Of a stretch of DNA of 64,000 nucleotides, positions 19,963-27,533 are shown piece after piece. The stretch comes from Gavia stellata (taxonomy: Eukaryota > Chordata > Aves > Gaviiformes > Gaviidae): positions 3,472,001-3,536,000 of the forward strand of contig NC_082620.1 of NCBI RefSeq assembly GCF_030936135.1, in the 5' to 3' direction. The translations under genes and the position numbers were made by a program. The notes below the pieces were generated by a model that was not told the DNA's origin, did no database searches, and saw nothing but the letters and a program-made list of their open reading frames with translations. Within the stretch, counting starts at the first letter, position 1; each line of letters begins with the position of its first letter.

Positions 19963-22900
19963 ATGCCCAGGGAAAAGACAGCACGGGTGCAAGCAGGTCC
20001 ATGCAGGTGAGTGTGGGAGCGCTGCAAAATGCTTTTACAGAGAGGTTTTTAACACCCCGTGAGATCTTGCGACTTAGCAAGGGGAAGGGTAAAATCCAGC
20101 AGTGAGTGCCGGCAGCATCTCTGCAGACCTACCTCCTTCAGATCCCCGCTGCTTGTTCTTAAGGCATTCAGATGCCGGGTGAAGACCTCTGAACTGTCAC
20201 TGTGGCTGACACACAGACACAAATGGGGATTTTTTGCAAAGCACAAGCAGAATCACCGCCTTTTAGCCTGGTACTACATTAAAGCCCCTATTTATATTTC
20301 TTTCATTGTAATAAAAGGTAGGCAGTATAAAATCAAGGTGGATTTTTGTTGTGTTTTTCTTCTCCCTCCTGGCACACATTTAGATGGATTCAAGAGTAAA
20401 ACCATCGATTAAAACCCAAGGACAAGTGACTCAAAGGTAAGCAGTAGATAGAGTAAGGAAAAGAGTGGAAGTTCATTGCAAAACCAGAAATGTATCTGGG
20501 TTCAGAGATAAATTTTTCTAGGCTTGCGGTTCCTTTCAGTCAGACGTTTTGCAGTTGTTACCTTTGGATTAAAAATAAATATATATATTTTATTAAACAT
20601 AAATTGTATTAAATAAGTAAGAGAAAACATGGCTGTTTACCAGCTTCGGGGACTGTACTTTTATTACTTTTCTTCTACTTTACAACCATTGACCACCATT
20701 CTGCTGCGAAGAGCCCAGCAGGAACTTGTTTTGCCTAGTATCAGCCTCTGCTGAGAAATAGCAGGCTTTATTGGGTCTTTATTTATCTTATTAAAAGAGT
20801 AATTTCACTATCTGAAAGAGCAGGGGATCTGAGGAGGGCTTTTTTCAATCACCTCTACTATGTAGAGGAAAAGAAAAACAAAAAGACAAAAAAAAAAGGA
20901 CTGAGCTAAATGGACTGATCAGCAAGCCAGTCCCCTGATGTGTTCTTTATCAGTGGAAATAAGGGTTGCGCAGTTATTCAGGAGTCACCAGCTTCAGCAT
21001 AACATCCTGAGTTGTTTTCATGAGTATCATTAATGTAAAATTATAAATGATTGATTAATAGTTCTGAAAATGAAAATCATTAGAGGTTACTTTGCTGTAT
21101 GGAGCATGGATGTCAATTATGTGCAGCATGAAAGAGAAGGACAGAAAAGGTAATCATGAAAGTCAAACAGTAAAAGTTGGATATGTACATGCTTCTGTAA
21201 GAACTGAAACAAAACTGAAATTTGATTCATTTTCCTTTTGAAGTACTTAGACAACATTGTGGAAACGTCTGAGCTCATTTGAACATATCGACACAAATTA
21301 TTCATCATCTAGAAATTCCCATAAAGAACAAATTCTAAAAGTTTGATTAAAAAATTCAACAGTTCCCATTTGTGATCACTAAAATAAGTAACCCATCTTT
21401 TCATGGGCTTCTTTTAAGATTTGGGTAGAAGTACCACAGGGAATGAAACCTACAGCAAGTTATTTTATCAGTTTTAATACTCACAGAAGATCTGTATGAT
21501 TTCATTCATATGTTTTTGCAGTTCTGAATGTGTCATGGAAACAGTCTCTTTAACACACCTTTTCTTTTAAAATAAAATGTCAGGTGGAACAAAATACAAT
21601 AAAATATAACTTTCAATAACATGCAGCTAATGCATGATCCCTGTGTTTTGTTTCAGAATGCATGTGAATTGTTAAACATCACTACTAGCCCCAGTTATGT
21701 TTTCAGGAGCTGCAAGAAACAACCCAGGGATCAGACACCCCCACTCTTTTTTTTTTTTTTCCCCTTTTTTTTAGATGTTCTGCCCCCTCCAATGCTGGTG
21801 GTAGAAAAACAGTTGGAAGGATTTTGACAGCATGCGTGGTCTCCCTCTGCAGCCTCCTTGGAGCCATTTCTTTTGATTTGAGCAACAGCTTGGAAACATG
21901 GAGAAACACAGGGAAAGCGCTTCAGGAACTTGCCTCCTGTGAAAACCTTTGGGCTGTTCGCCTCATCTATCTGCTGCAGGAGGAAAGGCACAGCTGGCTG
22001 TTCCCAGCAGCAGACAAGAGCAAGAGATCATTTCATGCTCAGCTATTGGGGAATCTAAACTCCCTCTGTAAGGCAAGTGAAGCAGAACTGTATTGTGAGA
22101 ATTGCCAATGCAAGAAGGAGAAAATCTCCATTTGTAGATTTTACATCATTGACATGAGACAAAAATTAAATAGCACAGAGGATCCTGAAGCCAGCCAGGT
22201 GCTATCCAGAGTGATCTCTGAACTGCTGGAGCACTTCAGTAGTCCCCATGAAGACCTCAAAGCTATGAGATACAATCCTGACTGGGCAGACATAGTAGCT
22301 TTTAAACTCATCCTTCGCATAAGAGAAGCCATGCTTAAAGCTCATTTAATGCCAGCACCTACAAGCTTTCAAACAACATTGCATCAATTTTTTGCCATTC
22401 TGAATTATGCTATCTTCTCATCAGAGAGTGTACATAAGTGCTGGATGGATAATGTCAATCTGTCACTTCATTTCACCCGCTATGAAGGAATCTCTTTTTT
22501 TATCCCATTCCTGGGCTCAGATGAATTTGTGTCCATTGAAGCCTTGGTAAAGGGATTGCATTATGTACAGAGCTGCCTACTGCAGAAGGGACAGGAAAAG
22601 CTCATCAAGAAATCTAAAGAAATCGTGTCCACCATGAGCCTTAAGATCGGTCTGTTAGTGATAGCCTGTCTCATTTACCCCACAATCCTGGTGTCCTTCA
22701 AGCAAATGACAGATTGGATACACAATTATGCCAGGAACCTCAAGGAAAAGACAGAGGACTTGAAAAGGGAGAGGCGGCTTGCTGAGGACCTCTTGCACCA
22801 GATGTTGCCAAAATCTGTGGCCAAGCAGCTAAGGAAATGCCAAAAAGTCGAGGCAGAAAACTATGATCAGGTTAGCAAATGGAAAGGATGCTGTCAGCAA

Positions 22901-25900: not shown

Positions 25901-27533
25901 AACACAAAGACATTAGGTAGAAACACCATGGGTACACATAGGAGAGGCAAGTGCATGTTCTCTTGGTCTGGCCTTTTATGCTGCCTTTGCTACCAATATC
26001 ACCTATTTTTACTGCTGTACAATGCTGTTGTGCAGTGCAGCGCTGCACAGTCATGTCAGTGGTCAGTTAACCTGCTGAACCGCTGCTATGTTTTAGCTGA
26101 CATCTGTGTACAGTGTCACAGAGTCCTCAACCAACATTTAAGGCATCTTCCCCTTCTTTGTGCTTCTTCCTCAACCTGACGTTTATCCAAAGAGGAGGTG
26201 GAAACACTGGGCTGATAAATGCCGGAGGGCTGGTGTGTGGTCTCTGGGAATAGGGGAATCATTCATTTCTAATGCTCTGTTCTGAATCCTAGCGCAGAAG
26301 ATCCATATCAGTTCTGCTACATATAATGCCCTTCTCACAGATGATGCATATGAAATTGAACTGAGAGGAGAAATTGAAGTCAAGGTAACAGCTTTTCTGT
26401 AACTTTGCAACAGTAAATGTGTTTAATGAGACAGGAAGGAGATAAGATAGATTTGGCCATTGCTCTTCGGTGAATTGCAAGTCAATTTTTAACCGTGGCC
26501 CCAAGGTTCTTTTGCTAATTCAGTTGGAAGGGGCTATACATTAGTTCTAACTGACGCAAAAGTGTTCGTGTGCACTTTGAAATACAGCGACTATGTCTGC
26601 ACCTGCATGGAACCGCATGAATATGGGTGAAAGCATTAGGATTCAGTTACTAAGACACATGGGTGTAAAGCTGATTTTAAACCCTTAGCAATATCATCAG
26701 TGACCAGCAAAGCCTTTTTCTGAACTGGAATAATTATTAGCACCCAAACTGCATACAAATTAAAATTCTTTCCCCAAACAGCAGCCACTTATGAGAGAAG
26801 GAGAGATAACAAATGCAGTACAGGTAGTAGCCCTGCTAATATTGATTCTCTGCTCTGCTTCATATCCCATGAAAATAGGTGTTTTCTGCTCTCTCCTTTT
26901 TCTTGTCCCAGGGCAAAGGGAAAATGAAAACCTACTGGCTTCTTGGTAACAAGAACTACAGTGTCCAAAATGACAGCCTGGTGTGTCACTGGAATCCAGC
27001 AATCTCCAAGCAAAAGAAGATGGAAAGTAGCCAGGGATCTGTCCCACAAGTAAGGAGGTGAACGTTTCGCGGGGTGAGATTTCCTAGGTAACGAGCCATT
27101 CACTAAGGGCTAAGACGTGTAGAACTTGCCTCCTTGTCCTGCAAGTAGAGGGCTCTGCTGTGTGCAAATACAAGCTCTAACGTGTGTTCCTCTCTGTCAA
27201 TAGCGTAGCGCAGATGCTGTGGGAGCAGCACTGGCTGAGCAGAGCCCTGCAATGCCCTGGGATGAGCTGAGCCTTGACAGTCACACACAAAGGAGTTCCA
27301 GACCAGCCTGGACCCCTGAGAGTGCCACCCATGGCATGCGTGAGAAGCAGAGGAATGGCTTTCGTCAAAGCTCCAACCAGAGCCTCCAGGAGAACCTCAC
27401 TCCATTGGGCTCGCCTGCTTCGGGGGAAGGTGGCAAAGGTGCCGATTTAGAACACAGGGCACAGCTTGGAGACCACGGTATTAAAGCAATGCAGAAAAAT
27501 GAGTTTCTCCCAGGTTTTGTAGATGAGATGTGA
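19963..27533 (+). CDS. membrane guanylate cyclase with NIT-type sensor domain
   Basis: Predicted to make cGMP from GTP. The exons are 19963-20006, 21775-22870, 24415-24549, 24795-24969, 25387-25485, 26293-26384, 26912-27049 and 27204-27533. All phases fit and give 702 residues. A short cytosolic start is followed by membrane helix 1 (about 28-46). The outer domain (about 50-300) carries the LLQEER signature (81-86) of NIT domains, a Cys cluster (122, 125, 127, 135) and N-glycosylation motifs NST and NLS. Membrane helix 2 is at about 304-324. A coiled linker (about 330-372, with [14 protein letters not shown]) leads to the class III cyclase domain (381 to about 565). Metal ligands are Asp387 (FFSDIVGF) and Asp431 (VETIGDAY). 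The guanine-selecting residues are Glu427 and Cys499 ([10 protein letters not shown]); Asn506 and Arg510 complete the site. There is no kinase-homology domain. The last exon encodes a polar tail of about 110 residues that I do not recognise. Exon 1 was inferred from its ATG, a CAG|GTGAGT donor and matching phase. I know no standard vertebrate symbol. Confidence 0.88.

Follow-up and report, generated by a model that had tools for sequence, protein, structure and literature searches.

Animal guanylyl cyclases in which a NIT domain lies between two transmembrane helices (TMs) and the cyclase is C-terminal have been described (PMC7400543), and a third class of animal guanylyl cyclases was defined by a NIT extracellular region and a signalling helix, or S-helix (PMC1592074). 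According to the literature, such proteins occur in many bilaterian lineages (PMC7400543, PMC10584369), Platynereis NIT-GC1 mediates a nitric oxide (NO) signal (PMC10584369), vertebrates have lost NIT domains (PMC7400543) and seven subtypes of membrane guanylyl cyclase are counted as characterised (PMC10061024). Here we describe an intact, unusual vertebrate membrane guanylate cyclase gene in a 64,000-nucleotide stretch (the window) of the Gavia stellata genome (NC_082620.1, positions 3,472,001 to 3,536,000, forward strand). The encoded protein is a two-pass cyclase of NIT-cyclase architecture, and we think it quite likely that it represents a vertebrate line of the animal NIT-cyclase family that has survived and diverged.

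It is the vertebrate setting that is new relative to the reported loss of NIT domains (PMC7400543); the cyclase architecture is already known from invertebrates. A first-pass annotation of this DNA, made from the sequence alone, placed NIT domains with cyclases in some animals, which is correct as to animals but understates the reported bilaterian breadth and the NO role in Platynereis. Among the open-access literature matches listed, none described a vertebrate NIT cyclase, and the gene may already carry automatic annotation; two zebrafish clone names had no open-access literature match.

An intact eight-exon cyclase gene

Rebuilt from the raw sequence, the gene runs from 19963 to 27533 on the forward strand, and its eight exons join into a 702-residue product ending at a TGA stop. 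All seven introns are GT-AG and the frame is kept throughout without an internal stop, as expected from the complete gene annotated at first pass. Assuming equal codon use, chance would produce an open frame of this length in exon 2 (365 codons) at a given place with a probability of about 2.5e-8. The exons and domains are as follows.

19963-20006, forward: exon 1; ATG, residues 1-14 and part of 15; GT donor, in-frame splice to exon 2
20384-20436, forward: candidate alternative to exon 1, carrying an ATG and 17 residues; AG acceptor and GT donor, joins exon 2 in the same phase
21775-22870, forward: exon 2; TM1, whole ectodomain, TM2, signalling helix and cyclase start; 365 open codons
21812-21871, forward: TM1, about residues 28-47; hydropathy peak 1.99
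21872-22636, forward: ectodomain, residues 48-302, candidate NIT-like helical domain; 8 Cys, 2 N-glycosylation sequons
22637-22699, forward: TM2, about residues 303-323; hydropathy peak 2.16
22721-22831, forward: signalling helix, residues 331-367; Pfam match to the C-terminal coiled-coil stretch of HNOBA, E 9.3e-06
22847-26944, forward: class III cyclase catalytic domain, residues 373-558, exons 2-7; PF00211, E 2.5e-70
24415-24549, forward: exon 3; carries D387
24795-24969, forward: exon 4; carries E427 and D431
25387-25485, forward: exon 5; carries C499, N506 and R510
26293-26384, forward: exon 6; in-frame splice reconstruction
26912-27049, forward: exon 7; cyclase end and tail start
27204-27533, forward: exon 8; cytoplasmic tail and TGA stop

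The N-terminus is uncertain, as translation might instead start in the alternative exon at 20384-20436. Hydropathy and Pfam agree with the order first read by eye, that is, two membrane helices around an outer domain containing LLQEER, followed by a signalling helix and a class III cyclase. This layout, which lacks kinase homology, is that of the animal NIT guanylate cyclases. No kinase family was present among the Pfam matches of the protein, and a kinase-homology domain is absent because few residues separate the end of TM2 (about 323) from the start of the S-helix (331). Pfam likewise gave no match to an HNOB heme domain or to a peptide-binding ectodomain anywhere in the protein. The 27 residues that precede TM1 include six K/R and one D/E, and the N-terminus would lie inside, the helical ectodomain outside and the signalling coiled coil and cyclase inside.

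The guanylate cyclase catalytic set is complete in one chain (D387, E427, D431, C499, N506 and R510); we take D387 and D431 to be the first and second metal-binding aspartates, and the roles of the other four residues are likewise presumed. Because a single chain carries the whole set, a homodimer can be active, and a homodimer would be the most likely working form.

Lineage of the catalytic domain

In the catalytic domain, identity reaches 59% with NPR1 and 52% with GUCY2C. In a first tree, built from sequences of the Protein Data Bank (PDB), from seven bacterial loci and from three human sequences added from outside the databases, the window cyclase fell outside NPR1+NPR2 (support 99) and outside GUCY2C+GUCY2D+GUCY2F (96), with a support of 40 for its own placement. 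When these added rows were removed, it paired with the single NPR1 row (support 56), a tree that cannot test the NPR clade because it holds only one NPR row.

A second tree drew on the genome that holds the window (1.32 Gb in 1185 contigs, searched for both ectodomain and cyclase matches), which yielded 39 cyclase matches, including five of the gene's own exons and some adenylate cyclases. Thirteen regions were fetched, and eight of them supplied stitched domains, which were named solely after their best matches: a pair of NPR-like domains, one GUCY2D-like and one GUCY2C-like domain, a partial domain of a further membrane type, and three of soluble type. The window cyclase again lay outside the NPR clade (98.1/99 when the added human rows were left out, 98.6/96 when they were included) and outside the GUCY2C+GUCY2D-like clade (97.5/98 and 98.6/99, respectively). 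Its own placement was weak (bootstrap 42-43), and the root is insecure because some intron residues remain in the stitched domains and the soluble sequences fall into no single group. A cyclase inside a known NPR or GUCY2 clade, the outcome that the first pass had named as refuting its reading, was not seen in these trees, and the proposal of a separate class of membrane guanylate cyclase is supported, both by the missing kinase-homology domain and by a position outside the NPR and GUCY2C/GUCY2D clades whenever each has at least two members.

Other cyclases of the genome were also inspected by eye. A cyclase on contig C11 (L138) was rejected as a second gene of this kind, as its upstream frames look like those of a soluble beta subunit, and two matches on contig C18 (L146 and L147) were set aside as adenylate cyclase 9-like. 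Contig C11 (L138, L149-L150) carries a soluble guanylate cyclase beta-2-like gene with heme-domain-like and HNOBA-like frames. No second copy of the ectodomain was found in the genome (self-match E 1.1e-170, one other match at E 3.5), and no close relative of the whole protein was found in viral contigs.

Origin of the ectodomain and its possible ligand

The ectodomain probably descends from that of the animal NIT cyclases. Its sequence does not by itself reveal a NIT domain, and the NIT label as first stated was not borne out. The search of the ectodomain against PF08376 (NIT) that had been proposed at first pass was run on the protein and gave no match (listing to E 10, with HMMER filters dropping most matches above about 0.1); a further PF08376 search found none here, but none in 14 control genomes either. 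Only two families appeared among the Pfam matches of the ectodomain, both far below cut-offs, and a sequence search of the PDB returned nothing below E 0.35. A home-made profile of 17 sequences (NasR and 16 bacterial NIT regions) scored -1.8 bits, compared with 5.8 reached in 300 shuffles, and pairwise alignment with NasR was not above shuffles, with no significant sequence similarity.

Other comparisons with bacterial NIT profiles did not convincingly beat shuffles. Between 5 and 10 of 150 shuffles did as well as the global alignment and between 27 and 34 of 150 as well as the local one, in which the reversed sequence scored higher than the true one. Five of 11 NIT invariant residues were matched, as many as in 32 of 300 shuffles, and hhalign gave a probability of 0.2%. 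No NIT domain was found at E 1 in 2129 reading frames near 85 fetched cyclase loci (80 kept of 169, which have prokaryotic titles, plus five from a viral collection), a set with no animal NIT sequence among it. As a separate observation, a NIT-domain reading frame is present on small plasmids of Salmonella and Escherichia fergusonii, mostly of 3.8 kb, and several of these frames are annotated as chemoreceptors.

In bacterial nitrate sensors, nitrate is held by arginines of a G-x-x-R motif; NasR has kept the two arginines but has glutamine in place of one glycine (PMC8199190). Two blocks of the ectodomain can be aligned with these sites.

21971-21988, forward: LLQEER, residues 81-86; R86 aligned with the first nitrate arginine (NasR QxxR), not significant alone
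22292-22345, forward: 18-residue block, residues 188-205; aligned with KExAGxER of NIT in one register, with H205 for the second arginine and L202 for the glycine

The score of LLQEER as the first block was equalled in 2220 of 5000 shuffles, a further point against NIT identity. Together the two blocks are the best ordered placement at family-like spacing (113, compared with 110-125 in the family), although 1447 of 5000 shuffles did as well; when wider spacing was allowed another pair of places won narrowly, at a score reached by 1097 of 3000 shuffles. The best hhalign stretch repeats the register of the pair spaced by 113 around the RE motif, whereas alignment with three other NIT loci keeps LQEER and puts the second half in a different register. 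R86 is present in a QxxR motif and aligned, and the reading of the second site as LKAH, with H205, is neither significant nor stable among alignments.

Single-sequence AlphaFold models were of low confidence (pLDDT 42.5 for exon 2 and 47.3 for the ectodomain). The ectodomain model gave a weak structural match to NasR (PDB 4akk) over 152 residues, the one comparison that points towards NIT. Foldseek returned nothing below E 0.13 and NasR was absent from the best 50 of 187 rows, and VIA, run on the exon 2 model, aligned only 37 chains, with NasR absent among 22 rows.

These results bear on three alternatives. It is unlikely, though the best placed of the three, that the gene encodes a vertebrate membrane guanylate cyclase of a separate kind, in which an unrelated helical sensor, not NIT, has been joined as ectodomain to the same cyclase module and LLQEER is coincidental. 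Such a protein would account for the failed or weak NIT sequence tests, for the cysteine cluster at residues 113-135 (including YCENCQC) and for the flagellin-like bundles, not NIT, that head the structural rows of the weak ectodomain model, a result that also counts against descent from NIT cyclases. Set against it are the domain order, which fits the NIT cyclase class, and the fact that NasR alone aligns more than half of the model. We consider it improbable that the gene is a recent relic which, whether expressed or silent, has stopped signalling and is heading for loss: the ectodomain differs strongly from the bacterial NIT domains and, in one register, lacks the second nitrate arginine, but 702 codons carry no stop, frameshift or splice defect, the catalytic residues are complete and the cyclase keeps its similarity to NPR1. 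The third alternative concerns the neighbouring genes and is taken up below.

We think it more likely than not that the gene is a surviving vertebrate NIT-cyclase line that forms an eighth class of vertebrate membrane guanylate cyclase, kept intact beside the natriuretic peptide genes, with its pocket retuned for a small ligand or an NO-derived signal. The nitrate pocket appears half lost: provided that the register holds, R86 is kept and H205 has taken the place of the second arginine, which would make nitrate a doubtful ligand. Rather than nitrate bound in the bacterial manner, the ligand would more likely be an altered small molecule or a signal related to NO. Binding to the ectodomain may shift the TM helices, TM2 in particular, and the signalling helix could relay this shift so that the two cyclase domains close on GTP and produce cGMP.

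If this is true, an intact vertebrate gene of NIT-cyclase layout adds a receptor class to the seven subtypes counted in PMC10061024, a land vertebrate has an orphan cGMP receptor that is open to testing, and the loss of NIT cyclases in other lineages could be dated. Given the NO role described for Platynereis (PMC10584369), it would also become testable whether vertebrates have a route for NO or nitrite that does not use heme.

Genomic neighbourhood and comparison with known cyclases

The natriuretic peptide cluster noted at first pass and a DUF2152 gene were both recovered with Pfam. Three natriuretic peptide open reading frames (ORFs; PF00212) lie in a row at 45166-45570, 51565-52293 and 58701-58898, presumably CNP-like, ANP/RNP-like and BNP-like by their ring motifs, and DUF2152 (PF10222) occupies two exons within 6708-9422, a gene that we take to be KIAA2013. 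The hormones are indeed neighbours, at a distance slightly greater than the 16 kb first given, with about 17.6 kb between the end of the cyclase gene and the first of the three ORFs. That the cyclase is a partner of this cluster, a metabolite sensor tuning the same cGMP pool as had been suggested, is very improbable: the three ORFs do lie 17.6-31 kb downstream, but nothing other than adjacency links them, DUF2152/KIAA2013 and a serine protease gene are closer on the other side, and two NPR-like receptors are on other contigs (C33 and C44).

The serine protease gene, between DUF2152/KIAA2013 and the cyclase at 14753-18930, has PF00089 in three of the four ORFs tested and reads by eye as pancreatic elastase/chymotrypsin-C-like, with its start also placed by eye; in mammals such genes are elsewhere on the chromosome. 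A perfect TAGGA array of 17.2 copies (51482-51567) ends where the open frame holding the second natriuretic peptide begins. The segment at 14326-14400 resembles the consensus 3' end of avian CR1 repeats, and a short pattern taken from it has two matches in the window, a number also reached in 7 of 100 shuffles. An Rfam scan of the window gave nothing at gathering threshold.

Among known systems, soluble guanylate cyclases share the signalling-helix end of HNOBA with the window protein, which differs in lacking an HNOB match and in having two membrane helices. NasR of Klebsiella oxytoca shares the QxxR motif and, possibly, the fold over the 152 residues noted above; it is an RNA-binding antiterminator with both arginines, and the sequence similarity is not significant. 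GUCY2C and the retinal and olfactory GUCY2 proteins are membrane cyclases with an identical catalytic signature, whereas the window protein has no kinase-homology domain and lies outside the GUCY2C+GUCY2D clade (96-99). NPR1 and NPR2 are also membrane guanylate cyclases, with NPR1 59% identical in the catalytic domain, but the window protein has two TMs, no peptide-binding or kinase-homology match and a cyclase outside their clade. Placozoan NIT domains retain the critical bacterial residues (PMC7400543), whereas the second arginine of the window protein appears replaced. Compared with the animal NIT cyclases (the placozoan NIT GCYs and Platynereis NIT-GC1/2), the ectodomain here is unmatched by PF08376 and the host is a vertebrate; what they share with it is the whole arrangement of two TMs around an outer domain, an S-helix and a C-terminal cyclase.
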